64,000 nucleotides of DNA. Source: Halobaculum magnesiiphilum (lineage in GTDB: Archaea > Halobacteriota > Halobacteria > Halobacteriales > Haloferacaceae). The notes beneath the pieces were generated by a model. That model searched no databases, was not told the DNA's origin, and saw only the letters and a list, made by a program, of their open reading frames with translations. Location: NCBI RefSeq assembly GCF_019823105.1, contig NZ_CP081958.1, positions 2,480,001-2,544,000 of the forward strand, read 5' to 3'. A program made the position numbers and the translations under genes. Positions 56,095-62,440 of this stretch are shown here, in pieces (the first letter of the stretch is position 1; each line of letters begins with the position of its first letter).

Positions 56095-57141
56095 TCAGAT
56101 GACGCCCGTGAACGACGCGACCTCGATGGCGGCGTCCTCGTTGACGCCGTCGCCGAGGATCGTGTAGCGGTCGCGGATGGTGTGTGCCGTGGTCAGCGCC
56201 TCGATCACGGTCTCGTCGTCGATGCCGAGCTCGGCCGCGGTCGTCGGCGCGCCGATCGCCTCCAGGGCGTCGCGGATGGCGCGCCACTGGCCGTTCTCGC
56301 CGGTGTGGAGGAACTCCGTGAGGATGGAGCCGACGCCGACCTGATGGCCGTGCAGCGCCGGCGACTCGGCGATCCGGTCCAGTTGGTGGGAGAACAGGTG
56401 TTCGGCCCCCGACGCCGGACGCGAGGACCCCGCGATCGACATGGCGACGCCCGAGGAGACCAGCGCCTTCGAGACGATCCACGACGACTCCTCGAGCCCC
56501 TGTTTGATCGAGTCGGCGTTGTCGACGAGCATCTCGGCGGTCATCTCCGAGAGCGCGCCCGCGTACTCGCTGTACTCGACGTTCTTCAGCCGGCGCGCGA
56601 GGCGCCAGTCCTTGACGGCGGTGTAGTTGGAGATGATGTCGGCGCAGCCGGCGGTCGTGAGGTCCCACGGCGCGTTCGCCATGATCTCGGTGTCGGCGAT
56701 AACCGCCAGCGGCGGGTCGGCCGCGACCGAGTGGCGCGTGTCGCCCTCGGGGATCGACGAGCGCCCGGAGACGATACCGTCGTGGCTCGCGGCCGTCGGC
56801 ACCGAGACGAACCCGACCCCGAGCTCGTCGGCGGCCATCTTGGCGAGGTCGATCGGCTTGCCGCCGCCGAGCGCGACGAGGAACGTCGCCCCGGCGTCCT
56901 CGGCGGCCTCGACGATCTCCGCGACCGCGCCGAAGCTCGCCGAGTCCACCGTGACGGTCTCGGCGCCGTCGAACTGTGCCCGCAGGCGGTCGCCCGCGAG
57001 ATCGTTCGGGCTCGGCGAGGTGACCAGCAGGGGCGACCCGGCCAGCGACAGCTCCGCGACGGCGGTCCCGACGTCGTCGAGCACGCCGTGTCCGACGAGG
57101 ACGTTCCGTGGGAGCTTGATCCACGTCGACTTCGCGAACAT
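56095..57141 (-). CDS. egsA: sn-glycerol-1-phosphate dehydrogenase
   Basis: This 348-aa enzyme makes the archaeal lipid backbone sn-glycerol-1-phosphate from dihydroxyacetone phosphate with NAD(P)H and Zn. Motifs are VALGGGKPIDLAKMAAD, FVSVPTAASHDGIVSGRSS, SGAEHLFSHQLDRI and ALHGHQVGVGSI (metal-binding Asp and His residues). It is a marker of archaeal membranes. ATG 57141 is preceded by a CCCTTTACACC stretch 25-34 bp upstream. The 57142-57408 gap upstream holds nothing else recognisable. Confidence 0.95.
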   Translation of the reverse strand: MFAKSTWIKLPRNVLVGHGVLDDVGTAVAELSLAGSPLLVTSPSPNDLAGDRLRAQFDGAETVTVDSASFGAVAEIVEAAEDAGATFLVALGGGKPIDLAKMAADELGVGFVSVPTAASHDGIVSGRSSIPEGDTRHSVAADPPLAVIADTEIMANAPWDLTTAGCADIISNYTAVKDWRLARRLKNVEYSEYAGALSEMTAEMLVDNADSIKQGLEESSWIVSKALVSSGVAMSIAGSSRPASGAEHLFSHQLDRIAESPALHGHQVGVGSILTEFLHTGENGQWRAIRDALEAIGAPTTAAELGIDDETVIEALTTAHTIRDRYTILGDGVNEDAAIEVASFTGVI

Positions 57142-57408
57142 GACCGGTGGTTCCGCGTGGGGGTGTAAAGGGGTTGCCGTGTCGCCGGGATTCGGCGACC
57201 GTCGACGCCACGAGCGACCGTCACGGGACGAGGGTTTATCGCCGATGACGGGGCCAGCGTCGCCGATGCGGTGACGAGCGACCCGGCGCGCCAGCGGGTG
57301 TGCGACCACGCGCGTCGGGGCGACCCGGTCGCCTGTCCGCCCCTATCCCACGCAGCGACGGCGCTGGCCCCCGCGTCACTAGTATCACGTCACACTACTC
57401 GCGACACG

Positions 57409-58095
57409 TCACACCAGCGGGCCGAGCGTGCGCGCCGCATCGAGCAGGAACGCGGCGCCGAACCCCGCCAACAGCAGCGCCGATAGCGCGGCGACCGCGG
57501 GCGCGAGCGACTCGACGCGCCGTTTCGCCGCGACGAGCGCGCCCGGGAAGCCGGTCACCCACAGGCCGATGCCGCCGAAGAAGCCGACGATCAGCGCGGG
57601 GCTCCCCGTCTCGACGACGAGCGTTCCCGCCAGCTCGCTCACCTCGGCGGCGCCGAACACGTCGATCTCCCCGGGTTCGAGCAGTCCGACGCCGACGGTG
57701 AGCCAGAACAGCACCTGGTAGGGGTTCGCCAGCGCCAGCGCCAGCGCCTTCCGGAACCCCGCCGACTCCTCGTCCACCAAGTCGGTGTCGACGTTGAGGA
57801 AGGAGCCGCCGATCTCGCGGGCCGCGCCGTAGGCGTAATACAGCATGAGGACGCCGCCGACGCCGACCATCGCCCCACGGAGGAGCGGCGCGTCGTTCAG
57901 AAACCCGACGACGCCGACGAGCGACAGCACCAGGAAGATCGCGTCCGCGGTCGCCGCACCGAGGCCGGCACGCACGCCGGCGGTCCACCCGCGGAGCACG
58001 CTCTCCTCGGCGATGACGGCGTTCATCGGTCCCGGCGGCGCGGCCAACGCGAGGCCGAACACGACGCCGGCGGCCAGCGAGGCGACGACTGTCAC
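57409..58095 (-). CDS. LysE-family translocator
   Basis: A 228-aa membrane protein with six TM helices typical of LysE/RhtB exporters. The signature GLALAAPPGPMNAVIAEESVLRGW is near residue 15, and GFRKALALALANPYQVLFWLTVG is the fourth block. It exports amino acids or related small molecules; substrate unknown. The start is GTG 58095. It ends ~76 bp before the GDT1-family gene on the same strand. Confidence 0.83.
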   Translation of the reverse strand: MTVVASLAAGVVFGLALAAPPGPMNAVIAEESVLRGWTAGVRAGLGAATADAIFLVLSLVGVVGFLNDAPLLRGAMVGVGGVLMLYYAYGAAREIGGSFLNVDTDLVDEESAGFRKALALALANPYQVLFWLTVGVGLLEPGEIDVFGAAEVSELAGTLVVETGSPALIVGFFGGIGLWVTGFPGALVAAKRRVESLAPAVAALSALLLAGFGAAFLLDAARTLGPLV

Positions 58096-58170
58096 GTCCG
58101 GTATCGAGGCGCGCTGCCGTGAACAATGCGCCGGTTCGTGCTCGCCCCGTCTCGACACGCTCCGACCGCG

Positions 58171-58872
58171 CTACACGAGCGCCAGGACGGCCGACGAGAC
58201 GGCACCGACGACCGTCTCCCAGACGGAGAACCCGGTCGCCAGCGCCAACACCGTGTCGAGCCCGAAGAACGCGAATAGCGCGGCGCCCGCGAGGTGCGCC
58301 TTCCGCACGTCGAAGCGGTGGCTGAACCGGTGGAACAGGTACGCGTTCGCGAGGCTCACCGGGATGATGACGGCCATCTCGCCCACCCAGATGGCCGGAG
58401 CGGCGCCGTACTGCGCGGCGAGGCTGATCGTCACCAGCTGCGTTTTGTCGCCGAACTCGCCGGCGGCCATCATCGAGAAGATGGAGAGGAAGCTTCCGAG
58501 CCGCCCGGATATCTCCCGGCCGAACAGGTTCACCGATCCGTCGACTCCGGGCAACACCTCCCCGCCGTCGGTCTCGACGGCGTGTACGCCGGCGTCGGCA
58601 CCGGGCGCAGACCGGAACAGCAACACGGCGAACACGAGGAACATCGCGGCCGTGAACGCGTCCAGCATCGCTCCCGACAGCATCGACTGGAGCGCGGCGC
58701 CGAACCCGATCTCCAGCGCCGTCCAGCCGGCGAACGCCGTCCCCGCGGCGCCGACGACGATCGCCGGGCGGTACCGCGTCGACAGCCCGGCGATGATGAA
58801 CTGCACCTTCTCGCCGGGGAGCACCGCCAGCTGCGCGACGGCCGCGACGACGACGATCTCCCAGAAACTCAC
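58171..58872 (-). CDS. TMEM165/GDT1-family (UPF0016) cation transporter
   Basis: A 233-aa six-to-seven-TM protein. The second family motif is intact (MMAAGEFGDKTQLVTISLAAQ). The first is altered: LAVLPGEKVQFIIAGLSTRY where most members have E-x-G-D-K-[ST]. The family exchanges Ca2+/Mn2+ for protons. Its GTG start overlaps the stop of the DtxR/MntR-type regulator by 4 bp. This supports a manganese-handling role, for example Mn export under regulator control. Confidence 0.85.
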   Translation of the reverse strand: MSFWEIVVVAAVAQLAVLPGEKVQFIIAGLSTRYRPAIVVGAAGTAFAGWTALEIGFGAALQSMLSGAMLDAFTAAMFLVFAVLLFRSAPGADAGVHAVETDGGEVLPGVDGSVNLFGREISGRLGSFLSIFSMMAAGEFGDKTQLVTISLAAQYGAAPAIWVGEMAVIIPVSLANAYLFHRFSHRFDVRKAHLAGAALFAFFGLDTVLALATGFSVWETVVGAVSSAVLALV

Positions 58873-59618
58873 GCCCCGCCCACCCCCGCGTCGGTCGCGG
58901 CGGTGCCGTTCACCTCCTCGACCGGGCGGACACGGACTGCGGCGGCGATCGTCTCGGGGAGGCTCTGTTCGCGGTCGTCGCCGTCATCACCCGTGTCGCC
59001 GCCGTGCGACTCTCCGACGGGCTCGACGGCGACCGTCACCATCCCGAACGGCGCGATATCGACCACCTCGACGGTCGTTCCGGGGGTTATCCCCGCGCGG
59101 TCGAGGTACTCCAACTCCTCGTCGTCGCGGTCGCTGACGCGTGCGATGACGACCCGCTCGCCGACGGCGACCTCGGTGAGCGGGCGGGCGTCGTCGTCGG
59201 CCGGCGGCTCGAGATCCGCACCCGGGATCGGGTCGCCGTGCGGGTCGACGGCGGGGTCGCCCAGCGCCGCGGCGACGCGACGCTCGAACTCCTCGCTGAT
59301 GTGGTGTTCGAGCGCGTCGGCCTCCTCGTGGACCTCGCTCCACGAGTAGTCGAGGTGCTCCGCGAGATACGCCTCCAGCAGGCGGTGGTGCCGCAGCACC
59401 TCCAGCGCGACGGTCCGCCCCTCCTCGGTCAGCTCAGTCCCCTTGTACTTCTCGCGTTCGACGAGCCCGCGCTCCTCCAGCGTCTCCAGCATGCTCGTCA
59501 CCGTCGGCGGCGTCTTCCCGACGCGCTCGGCGATCGCCGAGGTCGACACGGGCGGCCCGTTTTCGGTCTGGAGCACGTAGATGGCCTTCAGATAGTCCTC
59601 CATCACGTCGCTCAACAT
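58869..59618 (-). CDS. DtxR/MntR-family metal-dependent transcriptional regulator
   Basis: A 249-aa regulator. The N-terminal winged helix is MLSDVMEDYLKAIYVLQ ... SAIAERVGKTPPTVTSMLETLEERGLV. The dimerisation/metal domain has the family residues in RHHRLLEAYLAEHLDYSWSEVHEEADALEHHIS. The C-terminal FeoA/SH3-like domain (~160-225) is present, split by an acidic segment. A palindrome TTAGAC-GT-GTCTAA (59631-59644) between its TATA box and start predicts autoregulation. It is co-operonic with the GDT1 transporter by 4-bp overlap, which points to Mn or Fe control. Confidence 0.88.
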   Translation of the reverse strand: MLSDVMEDYLKAIYVLQTENGPPVSTSAIAERVGKTPPTVTSMLETLEERGLVEREKYKGTELTEEGRTVALEVLRHHRLLEAYLAEHLDYSWSEVHEEADALEHHISEEFERRVAAALGDPAVDPHGDPIPGADLEPPADDDARPLTEVAVGERVVIARVSDRDDEELEYLDRAGITPGTTVEVVDIAPFGMVTVAVEPVGESHGGDTGDDGDDREQSLPETIAAAVRVRPVEEVNGTAATDAGVGGA

Positions 59619-59630
59619 CGGTTGCGGAAA

Positions 59631-59644
59631 TTAGACGTGTCTAA
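59631..59644. promoter_or_regulatory. Palindromic operator of the DtxR/MntR-type regulator
   Basis: Perfect 14-bp palindrome, two TTAGAC half-sites around GT. It lies between the TATA box (GATATATG, 59647-59654) and ATG 59618, so a bound dimer would block initiation. The TTAG...CTAA arms resemble DtxR-family boxes. Confidence 0.7.
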
Positions 59645-59774: not shown

Positions 59775-60953
59775 TCAGATCCCCTTGCCCATGAGGTGGC
59801 TCCGGAGCACGTCGGGCGTCTTCACGCCCGCGTCCGGGTTCACGACGACGACCTCGTCGTCGGGGCCGAGTGCGCCCGACTCCGCGAGCTGCCAAGCGCC
59901 CGCGAGAGCGACGCCGCCGGCGCCGCCGACCTCGATGACCTCCGTCTGCGCGACGGTGACGGCGCTCTCCAGCGCGTCGTCGTCCTCGACGGTCAGGGCG
60001 TCGCCGTCGACGCGGTCCAGCGCCGCGAGCGCCAGGTCGCCCCCGGCGGGCTCTTCGATCTCCAGCTCGCCGACGATGGTGTCGGGGCCGGTCCAGGCCT
60101 CGACCGCGTCCGCGCCGGACTCGAACGCGGTCGCGATGGGCGCACAGCCGGCGGCCTGCACGGCGTACACGTCCGGGACTTCCTCGGCGAGTCCGAGGTC
60201 GAGGAGGTCCTCCAGCCCTTGGACGACCCCGACGACGAGTTCGCCGGTGCTCGCGGGGAGGACCACCGCGTCCGGGAGCGGGGAGTCGACCGCATCGAGG
60301 AGTTCGTACGCGACCGTCTTCGCCCCGTCGTGGCGGTACGGCGTCGTGAACTCCTGTAGCGAGTGGTACTCGGCGGCCAGTTGGTCGTCGACGGCCGCGG
60401 CGGCGTCGCCGTAGCGCCCGCCGACGACGCGCATCTCCCCGCCGTGGACGTTCACCATCGCCTTGTTCGAGAACGCCGTGCGCGAGGGGACGAACGCGTA
60501 CGAACGCAGGTCGGTGCGGCCTGCGTAGGCGGCCGCCGACTGCCCGGCGTTGCCGGCGGCCGCGAGCGCCAGTGGCTCCAGTCCGCGCTCCGCGGCGGCC
60601 GTCACCGCGGGGCTCATTCCGCGGTCGACGTAGGTCCCCGTCGGGTTGCGTCCCTCGTCTTTCACGTACGCGGCGGCGACGCCGAGCTCCTCCGCGAGGC
60701 GGTCGGTCCGCACGAGCGGGGTGGCGCCCTCGCCGGCGGTGATCGCGGTTTCGGCCGGGAACGGGAGGAGGTCGCCGAAGCGGTACTGTCCCGGGCCGTC
60801 GCGGTCGCCGAGGGCGTCGGCGTCGACCGCGTCGAGGTCGTACGTCGGCGACAGCGGCGCCCCGCAGTCGGGACAGCGGCCGTGGTCGTCGACGCCGAAC
60901 GACTCCCCGCAGCCGGTACACGACAGGCCGTCGAACGCGTCCGTCGTCTGCAT
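59775..60953 (-). CDS. Threonine synthase-like PLP-fold protein lacking the Schiff-base lysine
   Basis: A 392-aa fold-type II protein. It has an N-terminal zinc ribbon (Cys12, Cys15, Cys27, Cys30), as in archaeal threonine synthases, then AAYVKDEGRNPTGTYVDRGMS, ALAAAGNAGQSAAAYA (phosphate-binding-like GNAGQ) and a late EVGGAGGVALAG. At the position of the PLP lysine (family consensus NPTGSFKxRG) this protein has Val109 in NPTGTYVDRG. Normal threonine synthase chemistry is therefore doubtful. It may be a regulatory or repurposed paralogue. ATG 60953 gives the complete ribbon. Confidence 0.75.
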   Translation of the reverse strand: MQTTDAFDGLSCTGCGESFGVDDHGRCPDCGAPLSPTYDLDAVDADALGDRDGPGQYRFGDLLPFPAETAITAGEGATPLVRTDRLAEELGVAAAYVKDEGRNPTGTYVDRGMSPAVTAAAERGLEPLALAAAGNAGQSAAAYAGRTDLRSYAFVPSRTAFSNKAMVNVHGGEMRVVGGRYGDAAAAVDDQLAAEYHSLQEFTTPYRHDGAKTVAYELLDAVDSPLPDAVVLPASTGELVVGVVQGLEDLLDLGLAEEVPDVYAVQAAGCAPIATAFESGADAVEAWTGPDTIVGELEIEEPAGGDLALAALDRVDGDALTVEDDDALESAVTVAQTEVIEVGGAGGVALAGAWQLAESGALGPDDEVVVVNPDAGVKTPDVLRSHLMGKGI

Positions 60954-61120: not shown

Positions 61121-62440
61121 ATGTCGGATTCCCCGAACGTCGTCGTCGCGGGCGCGGGACTCGCGGGGCTGGTCGCAGCGCGGCACCTCGCCGACGCGGG
61201 CACCGAGGTCACCGTCTACGAGCGCCGCCCCGTGGTCGGCGGCCGCGTCCGGACGCGACACGAGGACGGGTTCACGCTCGACCGCGGCTTTCAGGTGCTG
61301 TTCACCGGCTACCCCGCGGTGCGGCGCGAGCTCGACGTGGGCGCGCTCGACCTCCGCGAGTTCCGCCCCGGCGCCGTCATCTGCTCGACGGGCGAGGGCA
61401 CCCGAAGCGTCCTCTCGGACCCCCTCCGGGACCCCCGATCGCTGGTCGAGTCGGCGTTCAACCGCCGGGTGACGACGAGCGACAAGCTCCGGACGCTCGC
61501 GCTCCGCCAGGACCTCTCTGGGCGCGATGAGTCGTGGTTCTTCTCGGGCCCGGACGCGAGCATCCGCGAGTACCTCCGCGACTGGGGGTTCTCCGAACGG
61601 TACGTCGAGAACTTCGTCGCGCCCTTCTACGGCGGCATCACGCTCGACCGCTCGCTGTCGACCTCGAAGCACGTCTTCGCGTACACCTTCCGCGCGCTCT
61701 CGGAGGGCCGGATCGGCGTCCCGGCCGAGGGGATGGGCGTGATCCCCGAACAGCTCCGGGCGTCGGCTGAGGCCGCCGGCGCGACCGTCGTCACCGGCGA
61801 GGGCGTCGAGGGGATCGAGCGCGGCGGGGCCGGTTCGGGTGCGGGCGTCGGGAGCGACGGTGCCGCGGGGGTCACCGTCGAGACGACCGACCGCGCCGTC
61901 GACGCCGACGCGGTCGTCGTCGCCACCGACCCGAAGGCCGCCCGCGACCTGACCGACGTGGACGCGATCCCGACCGAGGGCGCCCCGTCGACGACGCAGT
62001 ACTACCGGCTGTCGGACGCGACCCCGGTTTCGACGGGGAAGAAGATCCTGCTCAACAGCGACGAGGCGTCGCCCAACGTCGTCGTCCCGCTCACCGACGT
62101 GGCGCCGGAGTACGCGCCCGAGGGCGAACAACTGCTGTGTGCGACGTTCCTCGGCGACGACGCGCGCTTCCGGGACGCCGAGGACCTCGCGGCCGACACG
62201 CGCGCGGCGCTGTCCGCGTGGTACCCCGAGCGGAGCTTCGGCGGCCTGGAGCCGATCCACACCGACCGCATCGAGTTCGCGCAGTTCGCCCAGCCGCCTG
62301 GCGTCCACGCGGAGCTGCCGGACGCGACGGATCCGGAGGGGCCGGTGTACCTCGCCGGCGACTACACCGAGTGGTCGTCGATCCAGGGGGCGATGAAGAG
62401 CGGGCGCGTCGCCGCCGAGGCGGTTCTCGACGGGAGATAA
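61121..62440 (+). CDS. FAD-dependent amine oxidase/phytoene desaturase-like oxidoreductase
   Basis: A 439-aa flavoprotein. The N-terminal FAD motif VVVAGAGLAGLVAARHLADAG ends in the acidic YERRPVVGGRVRT. The C-terminal FAD motif is VYLAGDYTEWSSIQGAMKSGRVAAEAV. The overall pattern is of NAD(P)/FAD-dependent oxidoreductases near protoporphyrinogen oxidase and carotenoid desaturases. Carotenoid or quinone chemistry is possible; no neighbour specifies it. ATG 61121 is eight residues before the Rossmann loop. Confidence 0.83.
   Translation: MSDSPNVVVAGAGLAGLVAARHLADAGTEVTVYERRPVVGGRVRTRHEDGFTLDRGFQVLFTGYPAVRRELDVGALDLREFRPGAVICSTGEGTRSVLSDPLRDPRSLVESAFNRRVTTSDKLRTLALRQDLSGRDESWFFSGPDASIREYLRDWGFSERYVENFVAPFYGGITLDRSLSTSKHVFAYTFRALSEGRIGVPAEGMGVIPEQLRASAEAAGATVVTGEGVEGIERGGAGSGAGVGSDGAAGVTVETTDRAVDADAVVVATDPKAARDLTDVDAIPTEGAPSTTQYYRLSDATPVSTGKKILLNSDEASPNVVVPLTDVAPEYAPEGEQLLCATFLGDDARFRDAEDLAADTRAALSAWYPERSFGGLEPIHTDRIEFAQFAQPPGVHAELPDATDPEGPVYLAGDYTEWSSIQGAMKSGRVAAEAVLDGR

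Follow-up and report, generated by a model that had tools for sequence, protein, structure and literature searches.

Within the analysed window, a stretch of 64,000 nucleotides of Halobaculum magnesiiphilum DNA, we examined a threonine-synthase-like protein, P0001, that lacks the lysine to which pyridoxal phosphate (PLP) is bound in threonine synthases, together with the genes around it (Table 1). The order of genes in the named loci is a divergent flavin oxidoreductase, the lysine-less gene, a DtxR-type regulator, a GDT1 family member and a LysE transporter. On the downstream side, the run at 56095-59618 (DtxR, GDT1 antiporter, LysE transporter, and an Fe-ADH/G1PDH-like gene) is conserved in many Haloferacaceae, which suggests a link to metal homeostasis. 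A perfect palindrome, TTAGAC-N2-GTCTAA, lies just upstream of the DtxR/SirR-type gene at 59631-59644. It was found in 24 of 209 loci, with 0.2 expected by chance in the window at up to two mismatches, and is likely the operator of the DtxR/SirR-type gene itself.

Table 1. Features of the P0001 locus, with positions given in the window
Feature	Position	Strand	Basis
Lys-less threonine-synthase-like protein P0001, 392 aa	59775..60953	-	Pfam PALP, NCBIfam NF006050, AF2, Foldseek/VIA
Codon 109, GTC = Val, at PLP-lysine site	60627..60629	-	alignment to Thermus enzyme, codon reading
Codon 207 = Arg (Thermus R160), invariant across the compared groups	60333..60335	-	alignment
Codon 238 = Glu, phosphate-binding loop	60240..60242	-	alignment of Haloferacaceae K-less vs K-bearing rows
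Codon 374 = Asp, adjoins cofactor N1 site (Thermus T317)	59832..59834	-	alignment
Divergent neighbour, flavin amine oxidase / phytoene-dehydrogenase-like protein	61124..62440	+	Pfam PF01593, synteny
Downstream neighbour, DtxR/SirR-type metalloregulator with FeoA domain	58869..59618	-	domain match, synteny
GDT1 divalent cation/proton antiporter family, downstream	58171..58872	-	domain match, synteny

P0001 matches the Pfam family PALP (PF00291) over residues 71-374 with 203.3 bits (cut-off 35), and the predicted fold agrees, placing it in the PLP-dependent fold type II superfamily. Its best NCBIfam model is the threonine synthase model NF006050, with 265.1 bits against a cut-off of 303; the score for TIGR00260 is 125.3, below the cut-off of 167.1. 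Of two features expected of a threonine synthase (EC 4.2.3.1), a score over a curated equivalog cut-off and the Schiff-base lysine in PTGSFK, P0001 has neither. The codons around the site read CCG ACG GGG ACC TAC GTC GAC CGC GGA, and Val 109 pairs with the PLP lysine K61 of the Thermus threonine synthase 1UIM in a phmmer alignment, in agreement with the earlier note, which had placed a valine here instead of the Schiff-base lysine.

The AlphaFold2 model of P0001, built from 38 related sequences, has a pLDDT of 87.9 and a pTM of 0.90, and its best structural matches by both Foldseek and VIA are threonine synthases (by VIA, 2C2B with Z 45.1 and rmsd 2.6 over 384 residues, 6NMX with Z 42.0 and rmsd 2.5 over 327 residues, and 1V7C with Z 41.2). 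A control model of the lysine-bearing paralogue L002 was of about equal confidence (pLDDT 88.9). The loop near residues 161-170 is the weakest stretch in the control as well, and thus its weakness says little about the loss of the lysine. All four zinc-ribbon cysteines (12, 15, 27, and 30) are present in P0001. The claim that the zinc ribbon and the rest of the fold are intact thus holds for this protein, as far as the fold can be predicted, but many of its orthologues have lost the zinc ribbon: in the lysine-less group of Haloferacaceae C15, C27, and C30 are retained in only 41% of sequences and C12 in 65%.

Site 109 is variable. Over 169 distinct protein sequences, among them the distant paralogues L003 to L006, all four with the lysine, it is filled by Leu (67), Lys (54), Val (11), Thr (11), Ala (7), His (5), Tyr (5), Arg (4), Ile (2), Phe (1), Gly (1), or Gln (1). 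The lysine is missing in all 58 named Haloferacaceae loci, and across the genus (11 genomes) the site is Val in six, His in three, Ile in one, and Leu in one. Sequencing error, already considered unlikely in the earlier note, can be rejected as the cause on the agreement of these loci. Valine itself, which was checked for conservation among the orthologues, is not conserved; the conserved state in Haloferacaceae is the absence of lysine.

The same gene order around a lysine-less gene is observed in Haloferax, Halobellus, Halogeometricum, Haloplanus, and Halobaculum, and around a lysine-bearing gene in Halobacterium (L063) and Haloarchaeobius (L092 and L103). The lysine-bearing gene of Halostella (L087) is found in the same order with the oxidoreductase gene farther away, the Halorubrum loci have at most the oxidoreductase in common, and in Halolamina the DtxR gene is located elsewhere. 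Since lysine-less and lysine-bearing relatives share their neighbours, they represent the same gene in altered form. In H. volcanii, HVO_0817 is described as a flavin amine-oxidoreductase (PMC4300041) and HVO_0819 as SirR (PMC11349517). Given these identities and a gene order conserved at all 11 Haloferax loci, HVO_0818 should be the lysine-less orthologue of this species.

The genome of H. magnesiiphilum contains five further genes of the family, L002 to L006, all with the lysine (L006 and L007 are one gene). L002 scores above the NF006050 cut-off and is 48% identical to P0001. L003 exceeds the TIGR00260 cut-off for thrC; the second thrC that was looked for in this genome is thus present in canonical form, and P0001 as the only threonine synthase can be rejected. 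Canonical ThrC of the L003 type occurs in 97 of 99 Haloferacaceae genomes and in 142 of 146 from the order as a whole; every one of the 122 order genomes of good quality (completeness of at least 90%, contamination of at most 5%) has a canonical ThrC with the lysine. When HVO_2969 (thrC3) of H. volcanii, which we infer to be of the L003 type, is disrupted by a transposon, growth depends on Gly/Ser/Thr, so that no other thrC-like gene there replaces thrC3 (PMC4300041). The L002 gene (C1:1570923-1572116) lies off the conserved locus and groups with other families, and it may have been acquired by transfer. In the lysine-bearing NF006050-type sequences, the Thermus ThrC residues N154, S155, and N188 are replaced by T, F, and G, respectively, and their own label as threonine synthases is thus open to doubt.

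A possible role for P0001 beside these paralogues is that of a dead partner subunit, which would pair with the lysine-bearing L002 in the same cell and tune its activity. Fold type II PLP enzymes are dimers, and both copies occur together in all 11 genomes of the genus. However, a hand count (E <= 1e-60) gave a single hit of the P0001 type in 53 of 94 Haloferacaceae genomes, site 109 having been read in part of them, so an L002-type partner is not generally present, and a partnership with canonical ThrC, 35% identical to P0001, would have to be assumed instead. On this comparison of gene contents we regard a partner role as unlikely.

The loss of the lysine in Haloferacaceae is accompanied by further changes in the cofactor pocket. 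Glu 238 is found in all 86 lysine-less sequences of this family versus one of 50 lysine-bearing sequences (L157), and Asp or Glu 374 in all 86 versus none of the 50; in addition, the lysine-less sequences have Ser or Thr at 236 (100%) and Gly at 346-347 (98-100%). These positions (238, 374, 236, and 346-347) correspond to Thermus residues 190, 318, 188, and 290-291 and are located in or beside the cofactor site, whose contacts in the Thermus enzyme we take to be N87, 187-191, and T317. Seven of the 20 group-specific columns fall within the 30 pocket columns, compared with 1.5 expected (hypergeometric p 0.0003, with windows chosen after the data were seen). K211, present in 46 of 50 (92%) lysine-bearing sequences, is absent from each of the three large lysine-less groups. 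Other positions (R207, N103, T105, D110, and R111) are invariant in every group. No lysine in the alignment is conserved in the lysine-less sequences and absent from the lysine-bearing ones, and takeover by another conserved lysine was rejected, as lysines 98, 164, 212, 245, and 378 are all common to lysine-bearing sequences.

As judged from the aligned residues, the pocket substitutions argue against PLP binding by P0001. An enzyme that holds PLP non-covalently, or as an external aldimine, and moves the proton with another residue seems improbable to us. In its favor, N135 (Thermus N87) is retained in 98% of the Haloferacaceae lysine-less group and roughly three quarters of that group still have Ser or Thr at 373 (Thermus T317), so that a weak non-covalent site could persist; R207 does not vary, and some Halobaculum sequences have His at site 109. 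Moreover, the Natrialbaceae lysine-less sequences keep the glycine-rich phosphate loop and mostly T373, and these proteins may still bind PLP weakly. On the other hand, a single family tolerates L, V, I, H, Y, T, or F at site 109, as a catalytic position would not; a glutamate in the phosphate loop (Glu 238) would be unfavorable to the PLP phosphate; and residue 373 is Pro in Halobaculum.

The phylogenetic analysis points to repeated loss of the lysine. A quick tree of 119 of the 169 sequences, obtained by dropping near-copies that are at least 88% identical and agree at site 109, gives four changes between presence and absence of lysine. A more careful tree of 72 sequences, with the pocket columns removed and the long-branch lysine-less sequences L145, L148, L150, and L156 of the quick tree, as well as L153 and others, left out, gives seven changes, six of which are forced by well-supported branches. 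A single clade of all 42 lysine-less sequences is rejected by the AU test (p 7.8e-14), ruling out a single origin of the loss. The separate lysine-less lineages are Haloferacaceae with family f4, a Natrialbaceae clade, Natronoglomus (L097, with weak placement, 95/37), and Halospeciosus (L094, which shifts between the two trees).

Three sequences, L069 and L078 of Natrinema and L157, retain the lysine inside lysine-less clades, yet F108 and K211 are gone from them, as from most of the lysine-less sequences next to them. They are possible intermediates, and because they already lack other pocket residues, the pocket was probably altered before the lysine was lost. Either the lysine was lost last, several times, or it was regained in these three; the first option is chemically simpler. 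K109 and K211 change in the same direction in three to four of six independent pairs and never in opposite ones (p 0.125, with too few pairs for significance).

The lysine-less gene is under purifying selection: within the genus, its median dN/dS over 36 pairs is 0.18, whereas the lysine-bearing paralogue has 0.137 over 55 pairs and ThrC has 0.096 over 6 pairs. Two of the 11 genus copies (L016 and L017, in the Halobaculum-type genomes G004 and G002) are split over two frames, which may reflect assembly errors or decay. Together with the faster evolution of the gene relative to ThrC, they would fit the gradual disappearance of a redundant gene; given the low dN/dS and the retention of the gene across Haloferacaceae with new invariant residues, such ordinary decay is highly improbable. 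Loss of a catalytic residue in a gene under purifying selection, as seen here, is a mark of a pseudoenzyme. The proposal that the protein is non-catalytic or repurposed and kept by selection is supported by the dN/dS values, the predicted fold, the presence of canonical ThrC, the lack of a stand-in lysine, and the wide conservation.

The most probable reading, to which we assign a probability of about 0.7, is that P0001 is a PLP-free pseudoenzyme, recurrently derived, that does not synthesize threonine and has been retained to bind a ligand or to regulate. That it has lost threonine synthase chemistry is a well-supported inference; the ligand-binding or regulatory nature of the new role is a guess. 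In the proposed course of events, a threonine-synthase-like gene of the NF006050/PRK08197 type in an old conserved locus lost its Schiff-base lysine, and in Haloferacaceae the cofactor pocket was rebuilt, with Glu 238 in the phosphate loop and Asp or Glu 374 by the N1 site. Given both changes, P0001 most likely carries no covalent PLP and makes no threonine, the latter being supplied by canonical ThrC. Selection retains the fold, the NPTGxxxDRG loop, R158, K164, and R207, and hence binding has most likely persisted, either of a small ligand, amino-acid-like or phosphorylated, or of a partner protein, and P0001 would function in sensing, regulation, or binding. We propose more tentatively, as a possibility short of an expectation, that haloarchaea have repeatedly converted the same PLP enzyme gene, at its original locus, into a ligand-binding protein free of PLP; in Haloferacaceae the cofactor cavity would have become an acidic site (Glu 238 and Asp or Glu 374) for a new, perhaps cationic, ligand, giving a new class of sensor.

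Because the lysine-less genes score against models of threonine synthase, they readily receive that label, yet the catalytic lysine is missing throughout an archaeal family. Active-type orthologues, altered pockets with the lysine, and lysine-free proteins compose a natural series of a cofactor enzyme ceasing to be one, traceable by synteny. If true, the sensor proposal would add a new class of sensor on the B6-enzyme fold, with lysine-holding intermediates of altered pocket (Natrinema and L157). The fate of the lysine-less gene is directly testable in the model organism H. volcanii, which should carry the gene as HVO_0818. In the literature searched, mostly without subscription journals, we found no description of a lysine-less threonine synthase in haloarchaea and no mention of HVO_0818 by name; no passage on thrC was found in PMC8305020.

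P0001 resembles the fold type II threonine synthases (TIGR00260; 6NMX, 1V7C, 2C2B) in its fold, NPTGxxxDRG loop, and R160 equivalent, and differs in the absence of the PLP lysine, the altered phosphate loop and N1 region, and scores under the NCBIfam cut-offs. With the haloarchaeal NF006050/PRK08197 type (L002, L063, L087, and L092) it shares sequence (48% identity to L002), tree position, and, in other families, a common locus; however, those proteins retain K109 and, in 46 of 50 sequences, K211, whereas the three large lysine-less groups lack K211. Finally, in trypanosomatid deoxyhypusine synthase a dead paralogue is reported to tune the active one (PMC3663545). There, as here, a conserved homologue without the catalytic residue exists alongside a relative that is active, whereas a partner of P0001 would be hypothetical and the loss is repeated in several lineages.
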